From: Burkholderiales bacterium
Lineage (GTDB): Bacteria; Pseudomonadota; Gammaproteobacteria; Burkholderiales; Burkholderiaceae_C
DNA: 64,000 nt
NCBI GenBank assembly: GCA_016213205.1
Contig: JACRAZ010000102.1
Span: 1 to 64,000, forward strand
Direction: 5' to 3'
Part shown: in pieces, positions 3,575 to 29,541 of the stretch
Layout of the letters: each line of letters begins with the position of its first letter
Position numbering within the stretch: the stretch's first letter is position 1
Translations under genes and position numbers: made by a program
The notes under the pieces: generated by a model
What the model saw: only the letters and a program-made list of their open reading frames with translations
What the model was told of the DNA's origin: nothing
The model's database searches: none

Positions 3575-3605
3575 GTGAATAGCGTCCTTTGTCAGCGGCC
3601 AGGGG

Positions 3606-4685: not shown

Positions 4686-4757
4686 GCGATGTGTCTCCTC
4701 GTGGTGGGTGTGCACGGTGACCGCAGGGGCTGCGGGTCCGCGACGACGAGACACTTC

Positions 4758-4773
4758 TGCACGGGGCGTGCCA
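4758..4773 (-). promoter_or_regulatory. sigma-54-type promoter for hoxK
   Basis: Read on the minus strand: TGGCACGCCCCGTGCA. It fits the -24/-12 consensus TGGCACG-N4-TTGCA with one mismatch (G for the first T of TTGC) and correct GG-to-GC spacing. It lies 73 bases upstream of the hoxK start. Hydrogenase operons of this type are known to use RpoN with a HoxA/HupR response regulator. The assignment is by motif only. Confidence 0.65.
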
Positions 4774-4796
4774 CTTGGGGGGTGGGCGCGCGTAAT

Positions 4797-4804
4797 CCCT
4801 AGGG
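4797..4804. promoter_or_regulatory. CCCTAGGG motif upstream of hoxK
   Basis: An 8-bp palindrome about 24 bases upstream of the -24 element, inside a longer conserved block (ATCCCTAGGGCGC, then ATGAGCGC). The same block occurs once more at 30610-30634. The position suits an activator site for the sigma-54 promoter. The regulator is unknown. Confidence 0.35.
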
Positions 4805-5015
4805 CGCTGCTATGAGCGCGAAGCCCGTGCATTGCGGGCGCGGGGCCGGGCCCGGCGCGGGGGTGTGCAGTGCCTGCGCAATCTGCACAGGCGGGTGATC
4901 AGGCAGGCAGCAGGCACAGCCTCGGGCCGCGGCGCTCAGGCCACGAAAGCCGGCCGGACGGGCCAGTGTTCCAGCGGCGCAACCCCGTTTCGACGCAACG
5001 ACGCGAGGCGGCCCG

Positions 5016-6276: not shown

Positions 6277-6912
6277 ATGACATCGCGCCGGCCCTTCGTC
6301 GATCCCGTGGCCCGCGCCGAAGCGGCGCGCCGGCTGGCCAATGCGCCGGCGCCGCGCGCTGCGCTGCGGCTGCCCCACATCGACCCGCAGCGCTGCACCG
6401 GCTGCGGCCGCTGCGTGGCGGTGTGCGAACCCCGCGTGCTGAGCCTGGAAGTGTTCCAGTGGGACAAGCGCTCGGTGCTGCACGACCCGGCGCACAGCAC
6501 CGGCTGCAGCGCCTGCGCGGCGATCTGCCCGTTCCACGCGATCACGATGCGCAGGCCGGCCGGGCCGCTAGGTCAGGTGGACACTGTTGGCACCGCCGCG
6601 ATCCCCGGCCCGCAATCGCGGCCGGCCCAGGCGGGGCGCTGCGCCGATTCGGAATCGTCGATCACGCGGTCGTGGCGGTCGAACACCAGCGTGGCACGGC
6701 GCTCGGCGTCGAATCGCGGCCAGCTTTCGCCCGGCCGGCCTTCGCGCACGAACGAGAGCCAGTGCGCACGCATGCGTTGTGCCAGCGCGGCGCGCCGGCC
6801 CCAGAGCGGGCCACCGCGCATCACCATCGCCATCAGGCCGGGCATCTCCCACAGGAACAGCAGGTCGACGCCGTGCGCCGCACCCAGCAGGCCGCCGAGG
6901 TCGAGGCGGTAG
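6277..6912 (+). CDS. 4Fe-4S ferredoxin-type protein with aberrant C-terminus
   Basis: The first ~98 residues are a two-cluster ferredoxin. Cluster one is complete (CTGCGRCVAVCEP; Cys40, 43, 46, 50). Cluster two reads STGCSACAAICP, with Ser74 where the first Cys is expected, leaving Cys77, Cys80 and Cys84. After about residue 98 (position 6570) the frame runs on for some 110 codons antisense to the adjacent esterase, and that part is Arg/Ser/Pro-rich with no family resemblance. A TAG one frame away (6569-6571) suggests the natural end was lost by a frameshift or a join. Electron carrier by family; the partner is unknown, and it may be a decaying gene. Confidence 0.5.
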   Translation: MTSRRPFVDPVARAEAARRLANAPAPRAALRLPHIDPQRCTGCGRCVAVCEPRVLSLEVFQWDKRSVLHDPAHSTGCSACAAICPFHAITMRRPAGPLGQVDTVGTAAIPGPQSRPAQAGRCADSESSITRSWRSNTSVARRSASNRGQLSPGRPSRTNESQCARMRCASAARRPQSGPPRITIAIRPGISHRNSRSTPCAAPSRPPRSRR

Positions 6913-8054
6913 AACCAGGTGGGATGACCTAGTAATGCGTGGCGCTCGGCAAAGTGCAGCGTGGGCAGGCCGAAGCTCATGTGCGTGCCCAGCTGCCGGT
7001 TGCCGACCTTGGTGTCAGGGTAGGCGGCCAGCACCCGCCGGGCGGCCTCGCCGCCGAGCTGGCTGCGCAGCAACCGGGCCATCGATTCGCGCGCCAGGAA
7101 CACATCGGCCACGCCGCGGATGAGCTCGAACATGCGGATCTCGTCGCGGTTGAAGCCCGCGAGCAGCGGGATCGCCGGCGTGGGCGCCGCACACGCCGCC
7201 GCCATCGATTCGGGCAGCAATGCGCCGTCGAACCAGGGCGCTGCCGGCAAGGTGTCGGGCACCTGCTTGGCGATGGCTTCGCGGGCGTCCTGCAGCGCCT
7301 GCACCGGCTGAGCCTGCAAATCCGCCAGCGAGCGCACGCCCAGCCGGTCGAGGTAGAGCCGGGCCACGTGCAGGCTCATCGCGCGGTCGTGGATCAGGCT
7401 CAGCGCGCCGCTTTGCGCGATGGCCGCGCGGAACAGCGGCCGCGCCTCGGGCGCATGCATCAGCAACGAGACCGACATGGCGCCGGCCGATTCACCGGCG
7501 ATGGTCACCCGGTCCGGGTCGCCGCCGAATGCGGCGATGTTCCGGCGCACCCAGCGCAAGGCCTCGATCTGGTCGCGCAGGCCCAGGTTGGAGGCGATGC
7601 GGTCATCGCCCAGCGCCTCGCCGAAGTTGACGAAGCCCAGCGCCCCCAGGCGGTAGTTGATGGAGACGACGACCATGTCGCCCTGCAGCGCCAGGTGCGT
7701 GCCGGTGAAGGCGCGCGCGCTGCCCACCATGAAGCCGCCGCCGTGGATCCACACCATCACCGGCCGCCGCGCCGCATCGGGCGCCGGGCTCCAGATGTTG
7801 AGCACCAGGCAGTCTTCGTCGAAGCGCGGTCCCATCATCTTCGGGTCGCCCACCTGCTTCTGGGGGCAGGCCGCGCCAAAGGTGGTGGCCGTGCGCACGC
7901 CGCTCCAGCCCTCGGCCGGCTGCGGCGGCCGGTAGCGCAGCGCACCCACCGGCGGCTCGGCATAGGGCACGCCCAGCCAGGCGCAGACACCGCGCTCGCG
8001 CAGGCCCTGCAGTGCGCCCAAGGGGGTGTGGGCGATCGGTTCAGCGGATGCCAT
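6573..8054 (-). CDS. type-B carboxylesterase
   Basis: Alpha/beta-hydrolase of the carboxylesterase type B family (493 aa). Motifs in order: GVPYAEPPVGALR, EDCLVLNIW, the oxyanion-hole block VMVWIHGGGF, the nucleophile elbow GESAGAMS (about residue 196), a catalytic acid in GFNRDE, and a His in GAAHGVDL. There is no clear signal peptide, so it is probably cytoplasmic. It lies directly after a second esterase (stop 8055) and ends the operon-like run TonB receptor, symporter, GH1-amidohydrolase, esterase, esterase. It should cleave a carboxylic ester of the imported substrate or of its product; the ester is unknown. Its 3' end abuts the aberrant ferredoxin frame. Confidence 0.9.
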   Translation of the reverse strand: MASAEPIAHTPLGALQGLRERGVCAWLGVPYAEPPVGALRYRPPQPAEGWSGVRTATTFGAACPQKQVGDPKMMGPRFDEDCLVLNIWSPAPDAARRPVMVWIHGGGFMVGSARAFTGTHLALQGDMVVVSINYRLGALGFVNFGEALGDDRIASNLGLRDQIEALRWVRRNIAAFGGDPDRVTIAGESAGAMSVSLLMHAPEARPLFRAAIAQSGALSLIHDRAMSLHVARLYLDRLGVRSLADLQAQPVQALQDAREAIAKQVPDTLPAAPWFDGALLPESMAAACAAPTPAIPLLAGFNRDEIRMFELIRGVADVFLARESMARLLRSQLGGEAARRVLAAYPDTKVGNRQLGTHMSFGLPTLHFAERHALLGHPTWFYRLDLGGLLGAAHGVDLLFLWEMPGLMAMVMRGGPLWGRRAALAQRMRAHWLSFVREGRPGESWPRFDAERRATLVFDRHDRVIDDSESAQRPAWAGRDCGPGIAAVPTVST

Positions 8055-9584
8055 TCAATGACCTGTGGGGTGTGAAGCCTGGGTGGCGGCCACGGCATCC
8101 AGCCGGGCCTGCGAAGGGTCGGCGCGGGGCACGCTGCCCTGTGCATCGAGCCACAGCAGCGGCTCGGCGCCGCCGTGCCAGCGCGGCCAGTCATCCGGCG
8201 TGCCCGTCAGCGCGAAGGTGGCCCAGGTGCGGGACAGGCGTGCGGCCAGCGCGCTGTCGGTCGCGCCGGCGCCCTCCAGGGTGTGCAGCGTGTCGAAGAC
8301 ATAGGGCAGTTCGCTCGCATGCAAGGCGCCCGCCGCCTGCGCCCCGCCATGGGCAAAGCGATAGACGTACACCGGCTGCCGCGGCGCCAGCGCGCGGGCG
8401 AAGCAGCGCGCGGGTTCGACGAAGACCTGGTCGCCGCGCAGTCTGGCCACGAAGCCGGCTTCGCCCTGTTGCAGCTCGCCCGCGTAGGCTGCCTTGAGCG
8501 CCGCGGCATCGGCCGCGGCGAAGTCCGCCAGCACGCGTTCGGCCGACTGCTGTGGCGCCAGGTGCGGTGCGGCCAGGAAGCCCAGTTCGTCGCTGTTGGC
8601 GCCGATGAGCACCGGCAGGCGCGCCAGGTCGCCGCGCAAGGCCGCCTGCTCGGGCGACTGCGGCCACCACGCACCGCCGCGCACTGGGCCGGTGAAGTCC
8701 GGCGCCGTGCCCATCAGGCCCAGCCCCTGGGTCAGCACATCCACCGGCAGGCGGCGCAGCGCGCTCAACACGGTGGCGTCGTCCGCATCGGGCACGCCCA
8801 CGCTGCGCGCCCACGCAAGCGCCAGCGCCGGCGCGTCGTCGGGGCCATCGCCCAGGCTGCGGGTGCGGCGGCCCATCGCGTCGGCATCGCGCAGCGGCGC
8901 CGATTGCAGGATGGCCTGCGCGAACAGGCCGCGCGCCGCGGGGCTGGCCATCAGCCAGGCCACCGAATGGGCGCCGGCCGATTCGCCGAACAGCGTGACA
9001 CGCGCCGGGTCGCCGCCGAACGCGGCAATGTGGCGCTGCACCCAGCGCAGCGCGGCCAGCTGGTCCATCAGGCCGAAATTGCCCACCGCATCGTCGCCCT
9101 GCGTGCGGCGCAGCGCCGGGTGGGCAAAGAAGCCGAGGCGGCCCAGCCGATAGTTCAGGCTCACTACCACCACGCCGTGCGAGGCGAGGCCGGCGCCGTC
9201 GTAGCGCGCAGGCGAACTGCCGCCGCTGACGAAGCCGCCGCCGTGGATCCACACCATCACCGCACGCGGCGCGGCGGCCGGCGCGGCCGGGGCCCACACG
9301 TTCAGGCTGAGGCAGTCTTCCGAACAAGTGCCCCGCGGCGGCGCCGCATCGAAGGGCTCGACATGCTGCGGCGCGTTGTCGCCGTAGCGGTCGGCCACGC
9401 GCACCCCGTGCCAGGGCAGCGCGGGTTGCGGGGGTCGCCAGCGCAGCTCGCCCACCGGGGGCGCGGCATAGGGCACGCCCAGGTAGCGATGCAGCGCCGC
9501 CCCCTGCGGGCCGCTGCATCGCTGGCCCTGCAGGCGGCCAGGGTCGATCTGGACCACCGGCCCCAGGTCTGCCATGCTGCTCAC
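8055..9584 (-). CDS. type-B carboxylesterase, second copy
   Basis: A second type-B carboxylesterase (509 aa) with GVPYAAPPVGELR, EDCLSLNVW, VMVWIHGGGF and nucleophile elbow GESAGAHS. The acid is in IGANSDE. The usual downstream catalytic His is likely the one in GALHASELPYVF. It differs considerably from its neighbour, so the pair is an old duplication or two separate acquisitions, not a recent tandem copy. I chose the GTG at 9584: it overlaps the upstream TGA (GTGA) and has GGAGG seven bases before it. An ATG nine bases further on (9575) is the alternative. The 1-base gap to the next esterase supports co-translation. Confidence 0.9.
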   Translation of the reverse strand: MSSMADLGPVVQIDPGRLQGQRCSGPQGAALHRYLGVPYAAPPVGELRWRPPQPALPWHGVRVADRYGDNAPQHVEPFDAAPPRGTCSEDCLSLNVWAPAAPAAAPRAVMVWIHGGGFVSGGSSPARYDGAGLASHGVVVVSLNYRLGRLGFFAHPALRRTQGDDAVGNFGLMDQLAALRWVQRHIAAFGGDPARVTLFGESAGAHSVAWLMASPAARGLFAQAILQSAPLRDADAMGRRTRSLGDGPDDAPALALAWARSVGVPDADDATVLSALRRLPVDVLTQGLGLMGTAPDFTGPVRGGAWWPQSPEQAALRGDLARLPVLIGANSDELGFLAAPHLAPQQSAERVLADFAAADAAALKAAYAGELQQGEAGFVARLRGDQVFVEPARCFARALAPRQPVYVYRFAHGGAQAAGALHASELPYVFDTLHTLEGAGATDSALAARLSRTWATFALTGTPDDWPRWHGGAEPLLWLDAQGSVPRADPSQARLDAVAATQASHPTGH

Positions 9585-12157
9585 GCGACGGCCTCCGGCG
9601 CCTTGTGGAAGCGCCCGTCCTTCATGATGGCCCTGAGCCGCTGCTTGTCCTGCAGCAGGCTCACGTCGACCGTGGGGTCGCCATCGACCAGCAGCAGGTC
9701 GGCCAGCCAGCCGGGGCGCACCTGGCCGAGCTCGTCGCCACGCCCCATCAGCTGCCCGCCCAGGGCGGTGGCGGCGTGCAGTGTCTCGGCCGGCGTGTAG
9801 CCGAAATGCTCGACCCACAGGGCCAGGTCGCGTGCGTTCCGGCCATTGGGGTTGAACGGAAAGCCATAGTCGCCGCCCGGCACCAGGCGCAGGCCGCGCC
9901 GCTTGAGTTCGGGCACCAGGGCCTTCTGGCGCGCCAGCACGATGGCGGCGTCCTGCTTCATGTGCGTCATGTCGATGTGCGGTGGGGGGTCGGCGTCGAG
10001 CGTGGCCTGGATGATGCCGATGGAGGGGCCGACGAAGATGCGGTCTTTCGCGGCCTCGAGCAGGTCCAGTGTGCCTTCGTCGGCATAGGTGCAGTGGTAC
10101 AGCACGCGAAAGCCGTGCCGCAGGCCCATGCGGATGGCCTCGTTGGCGTGCGCATGGCCCGTCAGCCACACGCCGCTGGCGCGCGCCGCGTCGCCGGCTG
10201 CGCGGATCTCGTCGTCGCTGTACAGCACCTCCAGCGAGGCGCCGGGCTTGAGCGCACTTTCGCCCGACAGCAGGAACTTCACCGATTGGGCGCCCAGTTC
10301 GGCACAGGCCTTCACGAAGGCACGCACGCTGTCGGGGCCGGCGCCGTGCTCGTCGACCCGGCCGCCTTCGAGGAAGCCGCCGTCCGAGGGGGGCTCGCGC
10401 TCCACCGACGAGGGAATCAGCCGCGGCCCCGGCAGGCCACCCGATTCGATCTGGTCGCGCAGCACCACCTCGAGCCGCTTGCTCAACGCACCAGCAGAGT
10501 ACGCACTGGTGAAGCCGTGGTCGAGCAGGATGCGTGCGTTGCGCGCGGCCGTGAGCGCCAGTTCCTCCGGCGGCAACACCATGCCCGGCACAAACTTCTC
10601 CACCGAGCTGGGCCAGGTGAGATGTGCATGCGCTTCGACCAGCCCCGGCATCAGGGTGCCGCCGCGCCCGTCGATGACGCGGGCGTTCGCGTGCGACACC
10701 GTGGCCCCGTCGCGCGCCACGGCCACGATGCGGTTTCCCTCCACCCGCACCTCGCCCGGGAACGGTGGCGCGCCGCTGCCATCGAACACCTGCACGCGGG
10801 TGAACACCACCGCCGGGGGGGGCGCCGGCGGTGTGTGGCGCAGACCGGCCGGCATGTCGCGTGCGGGCCCCGGTTGGGCCTGCACCTGCGCCCCTTCGGG
10901 CAAGGCATTGGCGCGGATGATGGCCGCGTAGTGGTGCGCGCTGGGCTTGGGGCTGCGCTGTTGCGTGGCGCGATCCACCGCGATCAGGCCGAAGCGCTTG
11001 CCATAACCGAACACCCACTCGAAGTTGTCGAACGCGCTCCAGTGCAGGTAGCCGATCACCGGCACGCCATCGGCGATGCAGCGGTGCACGCTGGCCAACG
11101 CGCGGTCGATGAAGGCGATGCGGCGCGCATCGTCACCGGTGGCAATGCCGTTTTCGCTGACGAGGATCGGGAGCTTGAGCTCGCGCGACACATCGCGCAG
11201 CACCGCGCCCAGTGCCTCAGGGGCGAACTCGTAGCCCATGTCGGTGCGCTCGCTGTCCGCGGGCGGGGGCACCTGGCCTGCGGGGCCGTGGACCTCGCGG
11301 GTGTAGTTCTGCAGGCCGAAGAAGTCGTCGCCTTCGATCACCGGCAGCCACTGCCGGAAGTTGCCGTGCCAGGCCTTTGCAGCGCCGGCCTCGCCGCCGG
11401 GCACGAACTGCACCTGAGAGACCGCCAGCGACAGGCCCACCTGCACGCCGGGCGCCACGCGGCGCAGCACCTCGCGTGCTGCCCGGTGCGCAGCAGCGAT
11501 GACGGCCACCCCCTGCTCGTCGCCAGCCATCTGGAAGTTGCAGTAGCGCTCGGCCGGCACGCCGCAGGCCGCGGCCGCGGCGGCGCGCCAGGCCGGCGCC
11601 TTCCACGCCGCGATGTCCACGCCCACCGGCGGCACGAATTCGAGCTGCTGGAACAGGCTGCGCAGCAGCACGCCGATGTTGCACTCGTTGAGCGTGATCA
11701 CGCGGCGCACGCGGCCGTCGAACGCCCGCATCACGGCCTCGACGTAACGCGCAAACAGCGCGGGTGTGTCGGCACCGTGCCATCCGCCCTGGGCCATCAG
11801 CCATTGCGGCGAGCTGAAGTGGTGCAGCGCCACCACCGGCTCCACGCCGTGCGCCACGCAGGTGTCGGCCATGTCGCGGTAATGGGCCAGCGCCTCGACC
11901 GAGAACGCGCCGCACTGCGGCTCGACGCGGGCCCATTCCACCGAGAAGCGGTAGCACGGCAGGCCCAGCGAGGCCAGCAGCGCGATGTCATCGCGGTAGC
12001 GGCGGTAGTGGTCGATGGCCTCGCCCGAGGCCTCGGGGTAAGGCGACTGCGCGACATGCTCTTCGAGCCAGTTGTCGGAGTCGAGGTTGTGGCCTTCGGT
12101 CTGGTGGGCCGAGGTGGCCGCACCCCACAGGAAGCCAGGGGGGAATCTGCGTGTCAT
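9581..12157 (-). CDS. GH1 beta-glucosidase fused to amidohydrolase
   Basis: Bifunctional protein of 858 aa. Residues 1-415 are a glycoside hydrolase family 1 domain: start FPPGFLWGAATSAHQTEG, acid/base Glu158 in TLNECN (usual TLNEP, so Pro is replaced by Cys) and nucleophile Glu336 in SENG. A Pro/Ala linker (about 420-448) leads to a metal-dependent amidohydrolase (450-858) of the imidazolonepropionase/Xaa-Pro dipeptidase type. Its ligand set is complete: His510-x-His512, Lys627 (SVKFLL, carboxylated in relatives), His668, His688 and Asp763. No signal peptide is seen. The same amidohydrolase occurs alone at 25352-26587. The ATG at 12157 matches the usual GH1 start. The frame is continuous through the linker with no internal stop. 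Inferred role: removes a sugar, then cuts an amide in the aglycone. Confidence 0.9.
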   Translation of the reverse strand: MTRRFPPGFLWGAATSAHQTEGHNLDSDNWLEEHVAQSPYPEASGEAIDHYRRYRDDIALLASLGLPCYRFSVEWARVEPQCGAFSVEALAHYRDMADTCVAHGVEPVVALHHFSSPQWLMAQGGWHGADTPALFARYVEAVMRAFDGRVRRVITLNECNIGVLLRSLFQQLEFVPPVGVDIAAWKAPAWRAAAAAACGVPAERYCNFQMAGDEQGVAVIAAAHRAAREVLRRVAPGVQVGLSLAVSQVQFVPGGEAGAAKAWHGNFRQWLPVIEGDDFFGLQNYTREVHGPAGQVPPPADSERTDMGYEFAPEALGAVLRDVSRELKLPILVSENGIATGDDARRIAFIDRALASVHRCIADGVPVIGYLHWSAFDNFEWVFGYGKRFGLIAVDRATQQRSPKPSAHHYAAIIRANALPEGAQVQAQPGPARDMPAGLRHTPPAPPPAVVFTRVQVFDGSGAPPFPGEVRVEGNRIVAVARDGATVSHANARVIDGRGGTLMPGLVEAHAHLTWPSSVEKFVPGMVLPPEELALTAARNARILLDHGFTSAYSAGALSKRLEVVLRDQIESGGLPGPRLIPSSVEREPPSDGGFLEGGRVDEHGAGPDSVRAFVKACAELGAQSVKFLLSGESALKPGASLEVLYSDDEIRAAGDAARASGVWLTGHAHANEAIRMGLRHGFRVLYHCTYADEGTLDLLEAAKDRIFVGPSIGIIQATLDADPPPHIDMTHMKQDAAIVLARQKALVPELKRRGLRLVPGGDYGFPFNPNGRNARDLALWVEHFGYTPAETLHAATALGGQLMGRGDELGQVRPGWLADLLLVDGDPTVDVSLLQDKQRLRAIMKDGRFHKAPEAVA

Positions 12158-12253: not shown

Positions 12254-13600
12254 TCATGCCCCCGCGGCGACGCGCAGGCGCGCGAGGTCGTCGCGCAACT
12301 GCGTCAGTTCGGCACGGCCGAGCGGGTAGCCCCAGCCGATGAGTGCGGCATAGAGCAGCGCGAACAGCGCCGGCACCACACCCATCAGCGCGGAGATGCC
12401 CTGCAGCGCCGGCTCGGCCTGCTGCGCGCTGCCGGTGACGTAGTGCGTCCACGCCAGCACGGCGCCCACGATGCCGGAACACAGGCCAGCCCCCACCTTG
12501 CCCGCGAAGTTGGAGGTGGCGAAGAGCGTGCCCACCACGCGGCGCCCGCTGTCGCGTTCCACCTCGTCGGCCGTGTCGGCCACCATAGAGACGGTGATGG
12601 GCGCACCCACCCCCAGCAGCACGTTGGCCAGCACCGCCAGCAGCATCACCAGCGGCACCCGCCCTGGCCCGGCGGCCAGGTAGCCCAGCAGCACCACGGC
12701 GTTGGCCACCGCGCTGGCCACCAGCACGCGCTTCTTGCAGTAGCGCCGGGTGAGCAGGCCGCTGAGCACCACGCCGAGCACCAGGCCGATGCCGCTCAGG
12801 CCCATGAAGGGCCCGATCAGCCCGGGTTCCTTCATCACTGCGGCGAAGTAGTAAACGCCGCTGGCCAGCGGCAGCCCGATCAGCGTGGCCTGCACGCCGG
12901 TGGCCGAGATGATGGTGCGCCAGCCTCGGTTGCGCCACAGCGCGGCGATGTCGCCCCGCAGGTCCTGGGGCGCCGAGGCCATCGGAGGCGTGCGTTCGCG
13001 CACGCCGGCAAAGCACAGCCAGGTGAACAGCAGGCCCAGCACGGCCATCAGCATGGCGGCGCGCTGGAAGCCCACGGCCTGGTTGCCCTGGGCCAACGCG
13101 TCCTTCAGGATCGGAAAGCCCGCGCCGCAGGCGATCACGCACAGGAACAGCAGCAACGCGCCCACCCCGGTGAGCCGCAGGCGCTCCACCGGGTCGGTTG
13201 CCATCAGGGCCGACAGCGACTGCAGCGGGATCTGCACCAGGCTGTAGCACCACCACAGCGCCACATAGGCGGCGATGACGAAGGCGGTGCCCGCCGCACC
13301 CGGCCACGGCGGCAGCGTGAAACTGGCCACCATTGCCACGGCCAGCAGCGGCGGTGTCCACAGCAGGAAGGGGCGGCACTGGCCCCAGCGGGTGCGCGTG
13401 CGGTCGACCAGGCGACCGACCATCAGGTCCCACACCGCATCGCCCACCCGCACCAGCAGCAGCATGGTGCCGATGAAGGCCGCGCTGAAGCCGGCCACAT
13501 CGGTGTAGAAGTACATCGCCATGCCGCTGGTGGCGGTGACCGCCGTGGGGAAGAAGTTGCCCATCCCGAAGGCGATCTTCTCGAGCGTTGGAATGCGCAT
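12254..13600 (-). CDS. GPH-family sugar/glycoside:cation symporter
   Basis: Inner-membrane transporter (448 aa) of the glycoside-pentoside-hexuronide:cation symporter family (MFS_2). About 12 hydrophobic segments are visible. Family marks are KIAFGMGNFF at the N-terminus, the LLLVRVGDAVWDLMVGRLVDRTRTRWGQCRPFLLW block (about residues 47-80) with the conserved Asp pair and Arg/Lys loop, and SMVADTADEVERDSGRR in the second half. It should take a glycoside from periplasm to cytoplasm, between the TonB receptor 22 bases upstream and the glycosidase fusion downstream. This position is the main reason to treat the locus as a glycoside uptake and degradation unit. Confidence 0.9.
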   Translation of the reverse strand: MRIPTLEKIAFGMGNFFPTAVTATSGMAMYFYTDVAGFSAAFIGTMLLLVRVGDAVWDLMVGRLVDRTRTRWGQCRPFLLWTPPLLAVAMVASFTLPPWPGAAGTAFVIAAYVALWWCYSLVQIPLQSLSALMATDPVERLRLTGVGALLLFLCVIACGAGFPILKDALAQGNQAVGFQRAAMLMAVLGLLFTWLCFAGVRERTPPMASAPQDLRGDIAALWRNRGWRTIISATGVQATLIGLPLASGVYYFAAVMKEPGLIGPFMGLSGIGLVLGVVLSGLLTRRYCKKRVLVASAVANAVVLLGYLAAGPGRVPLVMLLAVLANVLLGVGAPITVSMVADTADEVERDSGRRVVGTLFATSNFAGKVGAGLCSGIVGAVLAWTHYVTGSAQQAEPALQGISALMGVVPALFALLYAALIGWGYPLGRAELTQLRDDLARLRVAAGA

Positions 13601-13622: not shown

Positions 13623-15983
13623 TCAGAACTTGAGGTCGAGTGTCACGCCGTAGGACCGGAACGATGCGGACGACAGCGAGTAGGCGTAACCCGACCCGGC
13701 GCCCTTGCCCGGCAGCGGGTAGAGGATGGCCGAGGGCACGCGCTCATCGGTGGCGTTGCGCACGAAGACGTTCAGCCCCCAGGTGTCCGCCGGGTTGCGC
13801 AGGCCGGTGTGCAGGCCCGCGATCGTGTGCGCCTTGAAGCTGCACTCGACGGCCAGCGTGTTGCAGTAGCGCACGCGGGTCTTGTAGGTGAGGTCGGCAC
13901 CCAGGGTCCACTCGTATTCGCCGAACACCGGGGTGGCGTATTCGACGCCCAGCGTGAGCTTGCCCTTGGGCGAATACAGCAGGCGCTGGCCGGTCACGTC
14001 GTTGCCGTCGAAGCTGAATCCCTGGGGGTACTCGGTGCCCAGGATCAGCGCGCCGGAAGCGCTCAGCGTCAGCGCGGGCGTGAGCCGGGCCCGCAGGTCG
14101 AGCTCCATCCCGCTGGTCGTGACCGACGGAACATTCAGCGGCGTGCACACCAGCGCACCCACCGGGCTGAGCGTGCAGTTCTGCTCCTGGAAGTTGCGGA
14201 TGCGGGTGCGGAAGACGGCCAGGTCGAGGTTCAGGCGACGGTCGAGCAGCGTGGTCTTCACGCCCGCTTCGAGGCTGGTCGGTACCTCGGGCTGAATGGC
14301 CGAGCTGGGCGAGCTGAGGTGGCCGGATTGAGGCGGCGTGCAGTCGTCGACGATCTGCGGCCCCTTGTAGCCCCGGGTGATCGTGGCGTAGAAGTTGGTG
14401 CTCTTGTCCACCGTGTACAGCAGGCCCAGCTTGCCGGACAGGTTGTGTTCCTTGGCGGTGCCGCCACGCTTGCAAGTGGAAGTGGGCGCGGCAAAGGGCT
14501 GGAAGGCGACGTTCTGCGTGCCGAAGTAGGTGTCATGCACCTTGTCCTGCGTGTAGCGCAGGCCGGTCACCAGGCTGGCCTGCTCACTGAGCTGGGTGAT
14601 GGCCTGGCCGAACAGTGCGGCGGACTGGATCTGCGTGGCGCGGTCGATCCGGGTGGAGATGCTGCGCGGCACCGGTGGCGAGGGCGCGAATGGCGACGGG
14701 TAGATGTTCGTGGTGTTGCTGTTCCAGGCGTCGTAGTCGGAGAAGAACGCACCGACCACCCATTCAACCGGCTGGCGCGGCGCGCTGGCCAGGCGTACTT
14801 CCTGCGACAGCTGGCGCGCATAGCTGCTGCCGGCGGTGTTGGTGATCTTGTCGGGCGCCAGGTTCATGCTGATCGAGCGTGAATCGTCCGGCCCGCCGCT
14901 GCGCTCGCGCATGGCGGTGATCGAGGTGAGCGTCATGCCGCCGCCCAGCGTGTAGTCGACCTGCCCGGAGACGCCGCCGACGACGGTGCGCAGATGCTCC
15001 GGCACGTCGGAGCAGACCTGGTTGTTGGTGCTGCTGACGTTCACGCCGCAGGCCGCGAACTCGGCGCGGGGCTGGTGGTTGCCCGCGGTGTTGACCGCAT
15101 TGGCCACGAAGGGCGCGAAGAAGGTGGCGCCGGTGGTGCGGGTGACGTCGTGGTCGGCGATCAGGTTGACCACGAGGTCGGCGCTGGGCTTGAGCAGGTA
15201 GCGCAGGCGCACACCGTTGGCGCCGGTCTGGCTGTCTTCGCCCGTGTAGCGGTTTTCGTAGACACCCTGCAGCCGATCGGCATGGGCCGTGACGCGCAGC
15301 GCCGACATGCCATTGATCGGCACGTTGACCGCGCCGCGCAGCACGGCGTTGCGCGTCTGGCCGCCCGAGAACTCGGCCGAGGCCGTGCCCTCGAAACGCC
15401 CGATGCGCGGCGCTGTGGTCACCAGGTTGAGCACACCGGCCGAAGCGTTCTTGCCGAACAGCGTGCCCTGCGGACCGCGCAGCACCTCGACCCGGTCCAG
15501 ATCGAACAGCGAGCCGCCGGCGGTGTTGCCCTGAGGCACGCCATCGACCACCACGCCCACCGAACTCTCGGCCGAGCTCGTGAACACGGCCGTGCCGATG
15601 CCCCGAATGGAGGCGCTGCCGCCCGCGCCACCCGCCTGCTGGTCACCGAACTCGAGGCTGGCCGCAGTCTTGGACAGGTCGCCGATGCTGCGGATGCCTT
15701 GCTTGTCCAGCTGCTCGCCGTTGACGACGCTCACCGCGATCGGCACTTCCTTGACGTTCTGGACGCGCTTTTGCGCCGTCACGACGATGACCGGCAACTC
15801 GAGGCTCTTGCCAGCCGCTGCCGGCGGCGCCGTGGGCGCGGCCTCGGGCTGCGAGGCCGCGGACGCGGGGGGCCGGGCGGCGGCGGGCGCGGCGGTCTGC
15901 GCCGCCGCGGGCAGGCAGGCCGCCAGCAGGCCGCAGCCGAGCAGCGCGTGCCCGATGGGCGTGAGGAGGGGATGGCGAATCAT
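13623..15983 (-). CDS. TonB-dependent outer-membrane receptor
   Basis: Outer-membrane active-transport receptor (786 aa). A signal peptide (hydrophobic core HALLGCGLLAACL, cleavage near AAAQTAA) is followed by an Ala/Pro-rich spacer, a TonB-box-like VIVVTAQKR near residue 65, a plug domain (VVNGEQLDKQGIRSIGDL, GVVVDGVPQG, DLDRVEVLRGPQGTLFGKNASAGVLN), and a beta-barrel ending in an aromatic residue (VTLDLKF). This is the catecholate/oar-like class common in sphingomonads and Burkholderiales for plant-derived or aromatic substrates. GGAGAC precedes the ATG. First gene of the catabolic operon, 33 bases downstream of a cre-like operator, so it is likely LacI-controlled. Confidence 0.93.
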   Translation of the reverse strand: MIRHPLLTPIGHALLGCGLLAACLPAAAQTAAPAAARPPASAASQPEAAPTAPPAAAGKSLELPVIVVTAQKRVQNVKEVPIAVSVVNGEQLDKQGIRSIGDLSKTAASLEFGDQQAGGAGGSASIRGIGTAVFTSSAESSVGVVVDGVPQGNTAGGSLFDLDRVEVLRGPQGTLFGKNASAGVLNLVTTAPRIGRFEGTASAEFSGGQTRNAVLRGAVNVPINGMSALRVTAHADRLQGVYENRYTGEDSQTGANGVRLRYLLKPSADLVVNLIADHDVTRTTGATFFAPFVANAVNTAGNHQPRAEFAACGVNVSSTNNQVCSDVPEHLRTVVGGVSGQVDYTLGGGMTLTSITAMRERSGGPDDSRSISMNLAPDKITNTAGSSYARQLSQEVRLASAPRQPVEWVVGAFFSDYDAWNSNTTNIYPSPFAPSPPVPRSISTRIDRATQIQSAALFGQAITQLSEQASLVTGLRYTQDKVHDTYFGTQNVAFQPFAAPTSTCKRGGTAKEHNLSGKLGLLYTVDKSTNFYATITRGYKGPQIVDDCTPPQSGHLSSPSSAIQPEVPTSLEAGVKTTLLDRRLNLDLAVFRTRIRNFQEQNCTLSPVGALVCTPLNVPSVTTSGMELDLRARLTPALTLSASGALILGTEYPQGFSFDGNDVTGQRLLYSPKGKLTLGVEYATPVFGEYEWTLGADLTYKTRVRYCNTLAVECSFKAHTIAGLHTGLRNPADTWGLNVFVRNATDERVPSAILYPLPGKGAGSGYAYSLSSASFRSYGVTLDLKF

Positions 15984-16144: not shown

Positions 16145-16180
16145 TTCAATCCTCTGCAGACCGTGAGCGCCCCGCACGCA

Positions 16181-17224
16181 ATGGCCCGAAACGCCCAAGA
16201 CAAGACCACGAAGCGCGCGACGATCCAGGACGTGGCCGACGCCGCCGGCGTGTCGATCGCCACGGTGTCGCGCGTGGTCAACGGCGAAGGCCAGGTGCGT
16301 TCGGCCACGCGCGAGCTGGTGCTGGCCGTCATCGATTCGCTGCGCTACCGGCCCACGCTGTCGGCGCGGCAGCTCGGCGGCGCGCGGTCCAAATGGATCG
16401 CGCTGGTCTACCAGAACCCGGGCATCGGCTTCATGCACCTGGTGCAAAGCGGCGCCGTGGACCGGTGCCGCAACGACGGCTACATGCTGTCGGTGCACGC
16501 CTGCCAGTTCACCGGCTCGGGCCTCGACCGGGAGCTGCTCGACATCGTCGACCAGCTGCAGCCCAGCGGCCTGATCCTGCCGCCGCCGATGAGCGTCTCG
16601 CCCCAGGTGATCGAAACCCTGGGCAAGTGCGGCATCCCGTTCGTGCGGCTGTGCCCGCAGGAGGACGACCATCGCTCGCCCCGCGTGTGGTTCGACGACC
16701 GCAGCGCCATGCAGGCCATGACGCGGCACGTGCTGGACCTGGGCCACCGCGACATCGCGCTGATCACGGGCCTGCCGGCCACCTCGCCCGACCCGCGGCG
16801 GCTGGGCTACCTCGACGCCGTGCGCGAGGCACGCCTGCCGGCCGCCGAGCGCAACATCTCCTACGGCGCCTACACCTTCGAGGGCGGCCTGGCGGCGGCG
16901 CAAGCGCTGCTGCAGCGCAAGCGCCGCCCCAGCGCGATCCTGGCGGCCAGCGACGACATGGCCGCGGCCGTGTTGCACACCGCGCATGCGATGGGCCTGC
17001 ACCTGCCCGACGAGTTGTCGGTGACGGGCTTCGACGATTCCTACGTCTCGACGATCGTCTCGCCCGGCCTCACCACCGTGCATGCGCCGCTGCACGAGCT
17101 GGGCTCTGCCGCGGCCGACCTGCTGATCAAGGGCCCGCCCGACATGCAGGCCGGCCTGGTGATCAACCGGCCCTGGCGACTGGTGCAGCGCGGCTCCACC
17201 GCGGCGCCGGCCAGCCGGACGTGA
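16181..17224 (+). CDS. LacI-family transcriptional repressor
   Basis: Regulator (347 aa from the ATG; a GTG 18 bases upstream is an alternative). The N-terminal helix-turn-helix is RATIQDVADAAGVSIATVSRVVNG (about residues 12-36), followed by the hinge YRPTLSARQLGG and a periplasmic-binding-protein-like effector domain (WIALVYQNPGIGF through GFDDSYVSTIVSPGLTTV). It is divergent from the TonB receptor, with two operator-like sites between them. It probably represses the TonB receptor/symporter/GH1-amidohydrolase/esterase operon until a sugar-type inducer binds. A C-terminal piece of a nearly identical gene lies at 5016-5170. Confidence 0.93.
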   Translation: MARNAQDKTTKRATIQDVADAAGVSIATVSRVVNGEGQVRSATRELVLAVIDSLRYRPTLSARQLGGARSKWIALVYQNPGIGFMHLVQSGAVDRCRNDGYMLSVHACQFTGSGLDRELLDIVDQLQPSGLILPPPMSVSPQVIETLGKCGIPFVRLCPQEDDHRSPRVWFDDRSAMQAMTRHVLDLGHRDIALITGLPATSPDPRRLGYLDAVREARLPAAERNISYGAYTFEGGLAAAQALLQRKRRPSAILAASDDMAAAVLHTAHAMGLHLPDELSVTGFDDSYVSTIVSPGLTTVHAPLHELGSAAADLLIKGPPDMQAGLVINRPWRLVQRGSTAAPASRT

Positions 17225-19072: not shown

Positions 19073-19149
19073 GGCAGGACAGGCTGAAGCTGCGATGCGC
19101 GACAGTCTAGGCAGCGGCCCCCGGTGCGTCCATTCGACTTTCGGGATAG

Positions 19150-19172
19150 ATTGATCACCCATGGCGATCAAT
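19150..19172. promoter_or_regulatory. inverted repeat across the lysR start codon
   Basis: ATTGATC (19150-19156), nine bases, GATCAAT (19166-19172): a perfect 7-bp inverted repeat spanning the ATG at 19161. The size and T-N11-A style suit a LysR dimer site, which would give autorepression and control of the divergent dehydrogenase/BKACE pair. Confidence 0.5.
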
Positions 19173-25351: not shown

Positions 25352-26587
25352 TTACAGCGTGCACCGGTGCAGCCGGCCGTCCTTCATGATCACGCGCAGC
25401 TTGTCGCGCTTGCCCAGCAGGCCGATGTCGGCCGTCGGGTCGCCGTCCACCAGCAGCAGGTCGGCCAGGTAGCCGTTGGCCAGGCGGCCCAGGCGCTCGG
25501 GCATGGCCAAGACCTCGCCGCCCAGCGCGGTGGCGGCGTGCAGCACTTCGGCGGGCGTGTGGCCGAACCATTCGACGAACAGCGCCAGGTCGCGTGCATT
25601 GCCGCCCACCGGGTTCCAGGGGAAGCCATAGTCGCCGCCGGGTAGGTTGCGGATGCCGCGCCGCCGCAATTCGCGGCCCACCCAGCGGATGCGCTCGGCG
25701 GCGTCGGCCTGCTCGCGGCGGTCGGCCTCGCTGGCCATCACGCCGAAACTCGGGCCGCGCAGCAGGTCGGCCTCGACGATGCCGGGCGCCAGGCCGACGA
25801 AGAGGCGGTCCTTGTGCTGTTCCATCGCGTCCAGCGCAGCCTCGTCGGCATAGGTGCAGTGGTACAGCACGCGGAAGCCGTGGTGCACGGCCATGCGGAT
25901 GGACTCGGCGGTGTAGCAGTGTGCCGTCAGCCACACGTGCTTGCGGCGCGCCATGTCGGCCGCGGCCGCGATCTCGGCCTCGTGGAACTGCTCGCCCTGG
26001 TTGCTGCCGGCATCGAAGGCGCTGACGCCGTTGAGCAGGAACTTCACCGCATCGACACCGGCCGCCGCCGCCTCGGCGACGAAGGCGGCCACCTCGGCCG
26101 GCTGCGGCTCGCGCACGGCGCGGCCGGGGAAGCGGGTCTGCAGCCCCATCGGGCCGCCGGGCACCCGCTCGAAGGAGGAGGTGCGCAAGCGCGGGCCGGG
26201 CACCCAGCCGGCGTCGAAGGCCTGGCGCGCGGCCACCTCGGCCAGCATCGAGCCCGAGCCGCCGGAATAGGCCGAGGTGAAGCCATGGTCCAGCATCACG
26301 CGGCCGCAGTGCGCGATGAGCAGCGCGGTCTGCGCGTCGTTGCGGTCACCGGGCTTGTTGATCTGCTCGACGGTGGAGCCCAGCGCCAGGTGGGCGTGCA
26401 CGTCGGTCAGGCCCGGCATCAACGTGCCGCCCTGGCCGTCTATCAGCCGCGCGTCGCCGCGGCCGACCTGCTGGCCGCCGCGTGCGAGCTCGACGATGGT
26501 GTTGTCCTGCACCCGCAGTTCGCCGGCAAAGCGCGGTGCACCGCTGCCGTCGAACAGGTGGACATTGGTGAAGACGATGGCGGACAT
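25352..26587 (-). CDS. metal-dependent amidohydrolase, paralogue of the GH1-fused domain
   Basis: Stand-alone amidohydrolase (411 aa) of the imidazolonepropionase/Xaa-Pro dipeptidase type. The metal ligands are complete: HAHL (about residue 64), a Lys in DAVKFLLNG, His in WLTAHCYT, His in VLYHCTYADE and Asp in LPGGDYGFPW. It aligns along its whole length with residues 450-858 of the GH1 fusion at 9581-12157, sharing blocks such as GTLMPGL, HGFTSAYS, FRVLYHCTYADE and YLADLLLVDGDPT. It is last in a minus-strand set with an esterase, a Bug protein and an FAH enzyme. Hydrolysis of an amide or lactam is expected; the substrate is unknown. Confidence 0.9.
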   Translation of the reverse strand: MSAIVFTNVHLFDGSGAPRFAGELRVQDNTIVELARGGQQVGRGDARLIDGQGGTLMPGLTDVHAHLALGSTVEQINKPGDRNDAQTALLIAHCGRVMLDHGFTSAYSGGSGSMLAEVAARQAFDAGWVPGPRLRTSSFERVPGGPMGLQTRFPGRAVREPQPAEVAAFVAEAAAAGVDAVKFLLNGVSAFDAGSNQGEQFHEAEIAAAADMARRKHVWLTAHCYTAESIRMAVHHGFRVLYHCTYADEAALDAMEQHKDRLFVGLAPGIVEADLLRGPSFGVMASEADRREQADAAERIRWVGRELRRRGIRNLPGGDYGFPWNPVGGNARDLALFVEWFGHTPAEVLHAATALGGEVLAMPERLGRLANGYLADLLLVDGDPTADIGLLGKRDKLRVIMKDGRLHRCTL

Positions 26588-26638
26588 GGGGCCTCCTGGT
26601 GGCCTGACGGCGGTTGGCGGGGATGGTGTGCTAGCGCG

Positions 26639-27544
26639 TCAAGGACGTGTCCATTGGTGTAGCGTCTCGGCCAGCGGTGTGCTGACGCTCGTGTCGACAG
26701 TGCCAAGGCTGAAGCCGGCCGAAAAATGGTTGTGCTCGCGCAGCAGGTGCAGTTCGGGCGCGAAGCCGTGCCGCGAGACCAGCCGCGCGAACAGCTCGCC
26801 GGCCTGCACCTGCATTTGCAGCAGGTCGCGTTCGCCCACGCTGAGCCACAGCGGAAACGGGGCTGCATCCACCTGCTCGACGATGCTGGCCGCATCCCAG
26901 TCCGCGCGCTCGGGGCCGAAGTAGGCTTCGTTGCGCGGATCCGGCGTGGGGATGCCGAACTGCGCACGCGCCAGCCCCTCGAGCCGCGCGTTGTAGGGGC
27001 CGGAACACAGCACGGCGCCGGCCACGTGCCAGTGCGCGGGCTGGAAGCGCCGCATCAGGCAGGCGGCGGCCACATGCGCGGCGCCGGCCGATTCGCCGGC
27101 CAGCACGAGGCGCTGTGCATCGCCGCCGAAGCGCGCCGCATGGGTCTGCAGCCACTGCCACACGGCCACCACGTCCTCGGGGCCGCTGGGCCAGCGGCTC
27201 TCGGGCGCCAGCCGGTAGTTCGGCAGCACCGTGACGAAGCCTTCGCGGGCGCCCCACCAGCCCAGGTTGGCGCGCTGCTCCTTGCTGCCGCGGATGAAGC
27301 CGCCACCATGCCACCAGGCCAGCACCGGGTGCGGCCCGGCGCCGGGCGGCGTATAGAGGTCGAGCTGGTGGCGCGGGTGAGGCCCGTAGGCGAGGTCGGC
27401 CGTCAGCGTGACGTCCTCGCGCGGCTGTGCCGCCAGCAGCGGCGCGTACAGCGCCTGCACCTCGGCCAGGCTGGCGCCGCTGCCCAGCGCGCGCAGGCGC
27501 TCGGCCAGGTCTTCGGGCATGGAAGGCATCTGGGGGGCGGTCAT
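26639..27544 (-). CDS. alpha/beta-hydrolase esterase (HSL-like)
   Basis: Esterase/lipase of the hormone-sensitive-lipase type (301 aa). Oxyanion block WWHGGGFIRGS (the HGGG motif), LPNYRLAPE, nucleophile elbow LAGESAGAAH (Ser near residue 158), and a catalytic His in REHNHFSAGF near the end. No signal peptide. Between the Bug gene (23 bases upstream) and the amidohydrolase. This repeats the esterase-plus-amidohydrolase pairing of the 6.6-12.2 kb locus with a different esterase family. Confidence 0.9.
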   Translation of the reverse strand: MTAPQMPSMPEDLAERLRALGSGASLAEVQALYAPLLAAQPREDVTLTADLAYGPHPRHQLDLYTPPGAGPHPVLAWWHGGGFIRGSKEQRANLGWWGAREGFVTVLPNYRLAPESRWPSGPEDVVAVWQWLQTHAARFGGDAQRLVLAGESAGAAHVAAACLMRRFQPAHWHVAGAVLCSGPYNARLEGLARAQFGIPTPDPRNEAYFGPERADWDAASIVEQVDAAPFPLWLSVGERDLLQMQVQAGELFARLVSRHGFAPELHLLREHNHFSAGFSLGTVDTSVSTPLAETLHQWTRP

Positions 27545-27566
27545 CGGGTGGTTTTTCCGCGGCTGC

Positions 27567-28535
27567 TCATTCCGGCAGCAAGCCGATCTCCTGTGCAATG
27601 GCTGTCCAGCGCGTGCGCTCGCTGCGCAGGAAGGCGCCCACCGCTTCGACCCCCATGCTGCCATCGGCCAGCGGCCCGATGCTGGCGATGCGCTCGGCCA
27701 CCTCCTTGTCGGCCAGCAGGGCGCTGACATCGCGGTTCACGTGCTCGGCCACCGCCGCCGGCGTGCCGGCCGGTGCCACCAGGGCGAACCAGCCCACCAT
27801 GTCGAAGCCGGGCAGGGTTTCGGCCAGGGTCGGCACCGTCTCCCAGCCGGCCACGCGCTGGGGCGCGGTGGTGGCCAGCAGCCGCAGCCGGCCCTGCCGC
27901 GCCAGCGCGGCAGTGGAGGCGAGGTCGGCCACCATCGCATCCACGTGGCCACCGATCAGGTCCTGCGTGCCCACGCCCACCGAGGCATAGGCCACGAGGT
28001 TGGCGCCGGCCCGGGCGCGGGCGTTGAACAGGCGCGAGATCATGCCGCTGAAAGTACGCGGCCCTTCGTTGCCGACCGAGAGCTTGCCGGGCTCTGCCCT
28101 GGCACGCGCGATCAGCTCGTCGAGCGACCGGATCGGCGAGCTGGCCGACACCATCAGGGCAAACGGGCTGCGCGCGACAAAGGCCACCGGCGCGAAGTCC
28201 TTCGCCGGGTCGTAGGGCAGCGACTTGAACAGCAGCGGGTTGGTCACCAGCGCCGCGGTGGTGGCGAAGTAGAAGTTGTGGCCATCGGCCGGCGCCCGCG
28301 CGGCAGCCTGCGCGCCGATGATGTTCTGCCCGCCAGGCTTGTTCTCGACCACCACGGCCTGGCCCCAGGCCTTGGCCAGCCGGTCGGCCAGCAGGCGCGC
28401 CACGGTGTCCGGCCCCGAGCCCGGCGGCTGCGACAGCAGCCACTTCACCGGCTTGTCGGGCCAGGCCTGGGCACGCGCCAAGGTGGGCAGGGCCAGCAAC
28501 CCGGCCATCAGGTGGGTGATGCGGCGGCGTTGCAT
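27567..28535 (-). CDS. Bug-family (TctC-like) solute-binding protein
   Basis: Periplasmic binding protein (322 aa) of the Bug family, very abundant in Burkholderiales. A signal peptide (MAGLLALPTLARA) is cleaved near AQAWPDKPV. Family blocks are the N-terminal WPDKPV, PPGSGPDTVARLLA, VVVENKPGGQN with the ligand-binding loop, YDPAKDFAPV, and GTPAAVAEHVNRDV. No TctA/TctB membrane genes are near, so it is an orphan that may deliver its ligand, usually a carboxylate, to a transporter elsewhere or sense it. Confidence 0.92.
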   Translation of the reverse strand: MQRRRITHLMAGLLALPTLARAQAWPDKPVKWLLSQPPGSGPDTVARLLADRLAKAWGQAVVVENKPGGQNIIGAQAAARAPADGHNFYFATTAALVTNPLLFKSLPYDPAKDFAPVAFVARSPFALMVSASSPIRSLDELIARARAEPGKLSVGNEGPRTFSGMISRLFNARARAGANLVAYASVGVGTQDLIGGHVDAMVADLASTAALARQGRLRLLATTAPQRVAGWETVPTLAETLPGFDMVGWFALVAPAGTPAAVAEHVNRDVSALLADKEVAERIASIGPLADGSMGVEAVGAFLRSERTRWTAIAQEIGLLPE

Positions 28536-28548
28536 GGCGTGGCGCCGC

Positions 28549-29412
28549 TCAGGCTTCGGCAACGATGGGGTTGCGCAGCAGGCCGATGCGTTCGATCTCG
28601 ACCTCGATGGTGTCGCCGACCTGCATCCACACCGGCGGCGTGCGCGCCTGGCCGACGCCGGCGGGCGTGCCCATCACCAGCGTGTCCCCGGGTTCCAGTG
28701 TCATGCACTCGGACAGCAGTGCAATGGTCTCGGCCACGCCGAAGATCATGTCGCTGGTGCTGGCGTCCTGCATCACCTGGCCGTTCAGGCGCGATTGGAT
28801 GCGCAGCCCGGTGGCGCCGGGCGGCAGTTCGTCGGCCGTCACCAGCACCGGGCCGAAGCCGCCGGTGCCGTCGAAGTTCTTGCCGATGGTCCATTGCGGC
28901 GTGCGCTTCTGGAAATCGCGCACCGACATGTCGTTGAAGCAGCTGTAGCCGAAGACATAGGCCAGCGCATCGAGCGCGGCCACGTGGCGCGGCACCCGGC
29001 GGCCGATGACCACCGCCAGTTCGGCTTCGTAGTCGAACTTCACCGAGGCCCTGGGGCACAGGCCCGGCTGGCCGTGGCCCACCAGCGAGCTCTTGCCGCG
29101 GTAGAAGAACCAGGGGTAGTCCGGCTTGTCGCGGCCGCCTTCCTTGGCGTGGTCGAAGTAGTTCAGGCCCAGGCAGATGGTCTTGCCGGGTTCGGGCACC
29201 AGCGGTGCGAACTGCAGGCCCGCCAGCGGCAGGCGCGGCGCATGGCCGGTCTGCGCGCGCTGTGCCGCAGCGGCCAGGTCCACGCCGGCGGCCAGCGCGG
29301 CGCGCAGCTCGGGCGGGGTGCCGGGCACGGCGGCGGCGAGGTCGATCACGGCGTCGCCCGTGACGAGCCCCAGGCGCGGCTGGCCGTTGTGCAGGAAGGT
29401 GGTCAGGCGCAT
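28549..29412 (-). CDS. fumarylacetoacetate hydrolase-family protein
   Basis: FAH-superfamily enzyme (287 aa). KTICLGLNYFDHAKEGG carries the catalytic-His region, FDYEAELAVVIGRR the metal-binding acids, then GYSCFNDMSVRDFQKRTPQW, GKNFDGTGGFGPVLVTADEL and the end block GDTLVMGTPAGVG. It is more like the 2-hydroxyhepta-2,4-diene-dioate isomerase/acylpyruvase branch than the copy at 21150. First gene of the minus-strand catabolic set and divergent from a GntR regulator, with an AT-rich palindrome between. Confidence 0.9.
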   Translation of the reverse strand: MRLTTFLHNGQPRLGLVTGDAVIDLAAAVPGTPPELRAALAAGVDLAAAAQRAQTGHAPRLPLAGLQFAPLVPEPGKTICLGLNYFDHAKEGGRDKPDYPWFFYRGKSSLVGHGQPGLCPRASVKFDYEAELAVVIGRRVPRHVAALDALAYVFGYSCFNDMSVRDFQKRTPQWTIGKNFDGTGGFGPVLVTADELPPGATGLRIQSRLNGQVMQDASTSDMIFGVAETIALLSECMTLEPGDTLVMGTPAGVGQARTPPVWMQVGDTIEVEIERIGLLRNPIVAEA

Positions 29413-29461
29413 CGGGAGTCCGTTTCTGGCAATGGCGGCGGCAGTCGGCCAAGGCGGTGTA

Positions 29462-29477
29462 GTTTTATATATAAAAC
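29462..29477. promoter_or_regulatory. AT-rich palindromic operator candidate
   Basis: GTTTTATATATAAAAC is a perfect 16-bp palindrome in a very GC-rich neighbourhood, 50 bases from the FAH gene start and 65 bases from the gntR start. The position between divergent genes suits an operator for the GntR regulator. Confidence 0.55.
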
Positions 29478-29541
29478 GTAGAAAGGCAATCAATAAGACA
29501 CAAAAGAACGGATGCCGAGTCTTGTGTACATTGAGCGAACC

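Follow-up and report, generated by a model that had tools for sequence, protein, structure and literature searches.

A rare fusion of a family 1 glycoside hydrolase with an amidohydrolase in Burkholderiales, possibly acting on plant phenolic glycosides

The first 64,000 nucleotides of contig JACRAZ010000102.1 from a Burkholderiales bacterium (GenBank assembly GCA_016213205.1; forward strand), referred to here as the window, contain a gene that joins a glycoside hydrolase family 1 (GH1) domain to an amidohydrolase domain (AHD) in a single chain of 858 residues. This GH1::AHD protein is a new domain architecture built from known enzyme families. It is probably a cytosolic bifunctional hydrolase that would deglycosylate an imported plant-type phenolic glycoside and then hydrolyze the aglycone or an early breakdown product; the basis of this proposal in sequence is the fusion itself, the retention of the catalytic residues, the cluster membership of the gene in the other four genomes that carry it, the lack of a signal motif, and a symporter gene.

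The gene is one stop-free frame on the minus strand (Table 1), and Pfam places both Glyco_hydro_1 (2.9e-67, in two stretches, the best at residues 2-165; 227.5 bits, cutoff 22.6) and Amidohydro_1 (7e-20, residues 501-849; 72 bits, cutoff 25) in the one protein, which bears out a preliminary description of this DNA in the position and continuity of the frame and in the presence of both domains in one chain. An open-frame check found the fusion as a single open reading frame in five genomes: that of the window and those with loci L001 (PBB6, genome G060), L005 (treated as one locus with L082/L101 of genome G004), L006 (Pelomonas sp. KK5, genome G061), and L100 (genome G013). The other four proteins are 69-72% identical to that of the window, and the five have zero internal stops, linkers of identical length, and no linker indels; in all seven of the stretches compared across the fusions, the linker included, change is greatest at third codon positions. 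The frame error at the linker that the preliminary description had named as a refuting result therefore did not appear. Although GH1 and AHD are adjacent but separate genes in six Massilia/Telluria loci, which had been candidates for full-length fusions until the open-frame check showed two neighboring genes, the chance that the fusion is an artifact, from a frame error in sequencing or from two genes taken for one, is negligible in view of the five intact genomes, and the GTG just inside the AHD that is common to the four non-window linkers is preceded by no purine-rich, ribosome-site-like stretch that could be discerned by eye.

The fusion is rare. Relatives were gathered by a pattern scan of a species-genome collection with six exact peptides from both domains, a procedure that misses divergent forms; the best 80 of 89 matches, from 79 loci, were retained. 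In whole-genome searches, the full fusion was found in 3 of 21 genomes of the genus of the window (all 21 candidates scored) and in 4 of 399 genomes of the family, the fourth of which (G163) carries the Pelomonas protein, and three further family genomes match in the AHD part alone. Among 399 genomes sampled from the order and 398 from the phylum, only that of the window contained the full fusion; each of the family, order, and phylum samples was drawn evenly from a larger group, and no more than two candidates per genome were scored. In G358, G385, and G216, the match runs slightly past the AHD, and tblastn at E values up to 10 found no GH1 remnant. None of the 1,179 plasmid records with a match, and none of 80 phage records, has 80% of the fusion protein in one place. 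Among the titles and abstract openings listed by searches of open-licence literature, none describes the fusion or the cluster. The view that this domain pair is not an established architecture is consistent with these results, and the widespread, already known fusion that would have spoken against it was not encountered.

The GH1 domain has the acid/base Glu158 (TLNECN) and the nucleophile Glu335 (VSENG), both of which align with the catalytic glutamates of BGL167 (PDB 4r27) and are invariant in all five fusions. The active site had previously been assigned to Glu158 and Glu336; the first assignment stands, but the nucleophile is Glu335. Residues Gln19, His112/113, Asn157, Tyr285, Trp373, Glu380, and Trp381, which we take to be the GH1 sugar-binding set, are likewise invariant in the five. 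The NCBIfam beta-glucosidase equivalog TIGR03356 aligns with residues 5-410 over its full profile (1-427 of 427) but at 257.4 bits, short of its curated cutoff of 478.5 bits. With the family profile and both glutamates present, the domain is assigned to GH1 as a predicted beta-glycosidase. BGL167 is the best solved match by sequence and fold (46-47% identity), but it is a 434-residue GH1 chain without an AHD, and it has an NEP motif where the five fusions have NEC.

In the AHD, the metal ligands His510 and His512 (HxH), Lys627, His668, His688, and Asp763 align with those of the nearest solved amidohydrolase by sequence, the L-arginine carboxypeptidase Cc2672 (3mtw), and are invariant in the five fusions and in 35 of 35 aligned AHD sequences, the residues of the metal site thus being kept, as had been proposed. 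The profile match and this ligand set place the domain, by sequence, in the amidohydrolase superfamily (Amidohydro_1), among enzymes that we take to carry the COG1228 label. Solved relatives include, in addition to 3mtw, those named as Xaa-Pro dipeptidase, ochratoxinase (4c5y), and imidazolonepropionase, whose reactions are presumably the cutting of amide-type bonds. The AHD differs from these enzymes in a GGDYGFPxNPxGxN motif that is invariant across the 35 aligned relatives and in its aromatic-catabolic gene context. An Xaa-Pro dipeptidase assignment was rejected, since the NCBIfam model NF051886 scores 177.2 bits over residues 470-852 against a cutoff of 500. A structural model of the full-length protein (mean predicted local distance difference test score, pLDDT, 80.3; predicted template modeling score, pTM, 0.58) supports two folded domains but not their relative placement. 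The pLDDT is below 50 in the AHD at residues 514-526, most of 550-602, and 763-773, which includes Asp763, and all 50 matches listed by Foldseek for the model are GH1 enzymes; the model thus adds nothing on the AHD.

Most close relatives of the AHD belong to a recurrent set of genes. Its other members code for HbpS-like and Amidohydro_2 proteins, an extradiol dioxygenase, an FAA hydrolase, an MhpA-like flavin adenine dinucleotide (FAD) hydroxylase, and an esterase, and genes for a stand-alone GH1, for TonB receptors, or for a GH106 rhamnosidase are often nearby; in the Pelomonas locus, family searches identified the corresponding genes as HbpS-like, Amidohydro_2, Glyoxalase/dioxygenase, FAA_hydrolase, and FAD_binding_3. 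The cluster occurs in loci of Burkholderiales, Alteromonadales, Pseudomonas, Caulobacterales, and Sphingomonadales. Genes were counted (E 1e-20, 35% of the query) in 70 AHD loci, comprising 35 and 32 unfused and three fused, with nine further loci having GH1 only; contig ends cut some loci short, and the GH1 count carries some bias, because the search patterns came from both domains. Near the 35 unfused AHDs of at least 56% identity, the hydroxylase was found in 31 loci, the dioxygenase in 29, FAA in 30, GH1 in 17, TonB in 9, and GH106 in 8; near the 32 with less than 56% identity, the counts were 0, 15, 14, 8, 6, and 7, respectively. When 31 chosen loci were compared all against all, 25 had the hydroxylase family and 24 the dioxygenase family. 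Plasmids also carry the cluster, judging from seven loci looked at among the 30 matches listed: in Sphingobium TomTYG64, TomTYG65, and RAC03 and in Novosphingobium aromaticivorans, an AHD of 53-57% identity lies directly before an MhpA-type hydroxylase followed, by annotation or similarity, by HbpS-like, VOC, and FAA genes, and in TomTYG64 and TomTYG65 genes for a TonB receptor, esterase, beta-glucosidase, and GH106 enzyme come next. The unannotated plasmid record of Novosphingobium PP1Y holds identical gene families, including an AHD with a GH106-type gene close by. A Pantoea agglomerans plasmid (AHD 35%) has FAA, alpha/beta hydrolase, AHD, heme-binding, and GH1 genes together, with no hydroxylase or dioxygenase annotated alongside. 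By analogy, the cluster layout would be that of aromatic-glycoside catabolism, and the cluster seems to represent an apparently undescribed pathway for breaking down sugar-decorated plant phenolics.

The fusion lies near the core genes of this cluster in four of the five fusion genomes. The G013 locus contains HbpS, Amidohydro_2, dioxygenase, FAA, hydroxylase, esterase, TonB, GH106, GPH, and GH1::AHD genes; G004 has the same set with TctC ahead of the esterase, and G060 has the set plus TctC, with no GH106 seen and some 14 kb between the hydroxylase and the fusion. The Pelomonas locus has the core, esterase, TonB receptor, and fusion with a GH106 relative downstream, and no GPH gene in the stretch of the locus that was covered. 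In four of the five genomes, relatives of the Pelomonas hydroxylase and dioxygenase are found some 3-16 kb away from the fusion, and the GH106 genes of the G013 fusion locus (L100:4354-7206) and the TomTYG64 cluster (L104:25442-28771) belong to the Pfam alpha-L-rhamnosidase family. In G013 and G004, the fused AHD is the sole one to pass E 1e-130 (all 21 candidates scored), the other near-full-length matches being 28% identical and the short ones 29-39%; the fused AHD therefore fills the AHD slot of the cluster in these genomes.

The fused GH1 domains differ from their unfused counterparts in their predicted location. A strict script requiring an arginine pair followed by a hydrophobic segment, a motif like that of twin-arginine translocation, was satisfied by 24 of 29 unfused GH1s in AHD loci, by 1 of 10 GH1s in loci without an AHD, and by none of the five fused GH1s, these signal calls being motif-based rather than from a trained predictor. 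Four of the five unfused GH1s that failed the script have the arginine pair by eye (L022, L024, L025, and one of two in L019), and the fifth has RGR. No arginine pair is present in the 50 residues ahead of the GH1 core in any of the fusions, which start about 4-20 residues before that core if the nearest start codons are used. A GPH-family symporter gene adjoins the fusion in four of the five genomes, as compared with none of the 35 close unfused AHDs (nor any of the 32 more distant ones). With a symporter at hand and no signal on the GH1, both steps would share one compartment, and the fusion would shift deglycosylation from the periplasm to the cytosol.

As to origin, quick trees without bootstrap place the five fused GH1 domains in one clade (100, starred) on a long branch; by path length their closest neighbors are actinobacterial GH1s, and the fork joining the two groups (93, not starred) also holds L084, a GH1 with an arginine-pair motif from the genus of the window. 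The fused AHDs fall within the cluster AHDs (24 rows; 99, starred), near those of Sphaerotilus, Ideonella, and Hydrogenophaga, but are not resolved as one clade (2 changes, compatible with a single origin), in a tree comprising 67 of 94 AHD rows after actinobacterial rows and distant rows from the whole-genome searches had been dropped. The simplest reading is that a signal-less GH1 was probably joined once to a resident AHD gene. Separately, a Streptomyces antibioticus AHD (L035:10001-11233), 62% identical to the fused AHD, sits on a long branch among the proteobacterial cluster AHDs, a possible transfer.

In the proposed sequence of events, the glycoside would enter through the TonB receptor and GPH symporter, acyl decorations may be taken off by the neighboring carboxylesterases, and the GH1 domain would remove a beta-linked sugar by a retaining mechanism with Glu158 as acid/base and Glu335 as nucleophile. 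The freed aglycone or early breakdown product would be hydrolyzed at the AHD metal site, and, where present, the MhpA-like FAD hydroxylase, extradiol dioxygenase, and FAA hydrolase would open and degrade the aromatic ring. The GH106 relatives and ring-cleavage genes point, indirectly, to rhamnose-bearing phenolic glycosides such as flavonoid rutinosides. More speculatively, there may be an as yet undescribed but widespread aerobic route for the use of plant phenolic (rhamno)glycosides, in which the fusion both strips the sugar and opens the aglycone. The AHD would then cut a non-amide bond of the aglycone (a lactone, pyrone, or other heterocycle), and the gain of the fusion and symporter would have moved sugar removal from periplasm to cytosol; we regard this wider scheme as possible but tentative.

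Several observations weigh against these proposals. The window genome, which is 94% complete, has no match to the Pelomonas dioxygenase and matches the Pelomonas hydroxylase weakly (27-34%), whereas the same searches found strong matches to both in six other genomes; the pathway there is thus truncated, rerouted, or unassembled, and no other result speaks as strongly against a complete pathway in the window genome. No GH106 relative turned up in the window itself. Among unfused loci, 18 of the 35 close AHDs lack a nearby GH1, the 32 distant ones are all without the hydroxylase, and the peptide patterns may have favored GH1-containing loci. An AHD on a Massilia putida plasmid (53%) is accompanied by a carboxylesterase and an MFS gene with no annotated hydroxylase or glucosidase. 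Finally, the names of the solved AHD relatives are those of amide-cutting enzymes.

Two alternatives are of interest in this regard. The two domains might act on different molecules of one pathway and be fused only for co-expression and stoichiometry; the AHD would come in further down, perhaps on a ring-cleavage product, and nothing would pass from one site to the other. Such steps can be parted, because most GH1s of unfused clusters bear an export signal and the AHD there has a gene of its own, and close AHDs without GH1 in the available locus sequence are consistent with this; the signal-less GH1 and adjoining symporter, which would bring both steps into one compartment, make it rather unlikely. 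The other alternative, raised in the preliminary description, is a glycosylated amide or N-acyl compound, such as a benzoxazinoid-type or phenolamide glucoside, from which GH1 would free the sugar before the AHD cut an amide or lactam. The names of the solved relatives favor it, but the ring hydroxylase, extradiol dioxygenase, FAA hydrolase, and GH106 neighbors need no nitrogen, the dipeptidase model is far below its cutoff, and among the entries listed by a literature search there was no direct support for a benzoxazinoid. We consider it improbable. Because the AHD neighbors are of ring-hydroxylating, ring-cleaving, and FAA type, a phenolic aglycone fits better than an amide; of the earlier proposal, the serial action of a sugar-removing and a second activity on a glycosylated compound probably holds, but the amide substrate finds no support here.

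In the window, the TonB receptor, symporter, fusion, and two type-B carboxylesterases lie on one strand (Table 1). Of the cluster genes, the window has only FAA, TctC, esterase, and AHD2, which form a second set 13 kb from the fusion, and no remnants of the HbpS, Amidohydro_2, dioxygenase, or hydroxylase genes were found in it at E 1e-3. The stand-alone amidohydrolase that had been noted earlier is real, and it falls in a different branch of the AHD tree from the fused domain. The set is operon-like (25352-30249, minus strand, with a divergent gene at 29512-30249 that is GntR-like by eye) and resembles the pathway cluster minus hydroxylase and dioxygenase. Elsewhere in the window are [NiFe]-hydrogenase large and small subunit genes near the glycoside genes (1718-4832, minus strand) and, at 17268-19216, a gene for a BKACE-family beta-keto acid cleavage enzyme beside a 3-hydroxyacyl-CoA dehydrogenase gene, possibly another catabolic operon. 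A defense-system reading was discarded, there being no PADLOC match.

Table 1. Coordinates of the fusion gene, its parts, and neighboring genes in the window
Feature	Position	Strand	Remarks
GH1::AHD fusion gene, 858 residues	9581..12157	(-)	ATG start at 12157; alternative GTG start 12220 possible
GH1 beta-glycosidase domain (predicted), residues 1-420	10898..12157	(-)	alignment to 4r27
Linker, residues 421-447 (~27 residues)	10817..10897	(-)	equal length in 5/5 fusions
Amidohydrolase domain (AHD), residues 448-858	9584..10816	(-)	alignment to 3mtw
GPH-family glycoside:cation symporter	12254..13600	(-)	directly upstream of fusion; TIGR00792 264.3 bits, cutoff 231.35
TonB-dependent receptor	13623..15983	(-)	upstream of symporter, same strand
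LacI-family regulator	16163..17224	(+)	divergent from TonB receptor gene
Type-B carboxylesterase CE_A	8055..9575	(-)	5 bases past fusion stop; start codon inferred
Type-B carboxylesterase CE_B	6573..8054	(-)	family search
AHD2, stand-alone amidohydrolase	25352..26587	(-)	51% identity to fused AHD
Alpha/beta hydrolase (Abhydrolase_3)	26639..27730	(-)	relative of cluster esterase; true start uncertain
TctC-type substrate-binding protein	27567..28562	(-)	family search
FAA-family hydrolase	28549..29412	(-)	76% identical to FAA of the L006 cluster; start inferred from alignment

A natural fusion that links an unassigned amidohydrolase subfamily to glycoside hydrolysis narrows the search for the substrates of that subfamily, and the cluster looks like a route for bacterial consumption of plant phenolic glycosides. 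Some comparison with known systems is possible, by description or family. PMC10653915 cites RHA-P of Novosphingobium PP1Y, a rhamnosidase of family GH106, for its action on flavonoid glycosides; the enzyme is of the type encoded near the AHD on the PP1Y plasmid, a likeness of family and strain only. In the same paper, GH106 and GH78 enzymes of a Sphingobium from tomato roots are active on steroidal saponins, and a rhamnosidase alone thus does not fix the substrate class. The hcdABC genes of Pseudomonas mandelii 7HK4, which act on 7-hydroxycoumarin, resemble the present cluster, as described in PMC6222606 and PMC7913881, in grouping an FAD hydroxylase, an extradiol dioxygenase, and a hydrolase of the ring-cleavage product, but the word amidohydrolase is absent from both papers. 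Similarly, the word is absent from PMC11069340 on the ifc system of Variovorax V35 for isoflavones, which has IfcD cupin proteins instead, although ifc, as described there, shares with the cluster an FAD monooxygenase and a glyoxalase-type dioxygenase, acting in ifc on the A ring of a plant (iso)flavonoid. The fde system of Herbaspirillum, as cited in PMC11069340, PMC11303751, and PMC8552027, has the same pair of enzyme types with the same kind of target.

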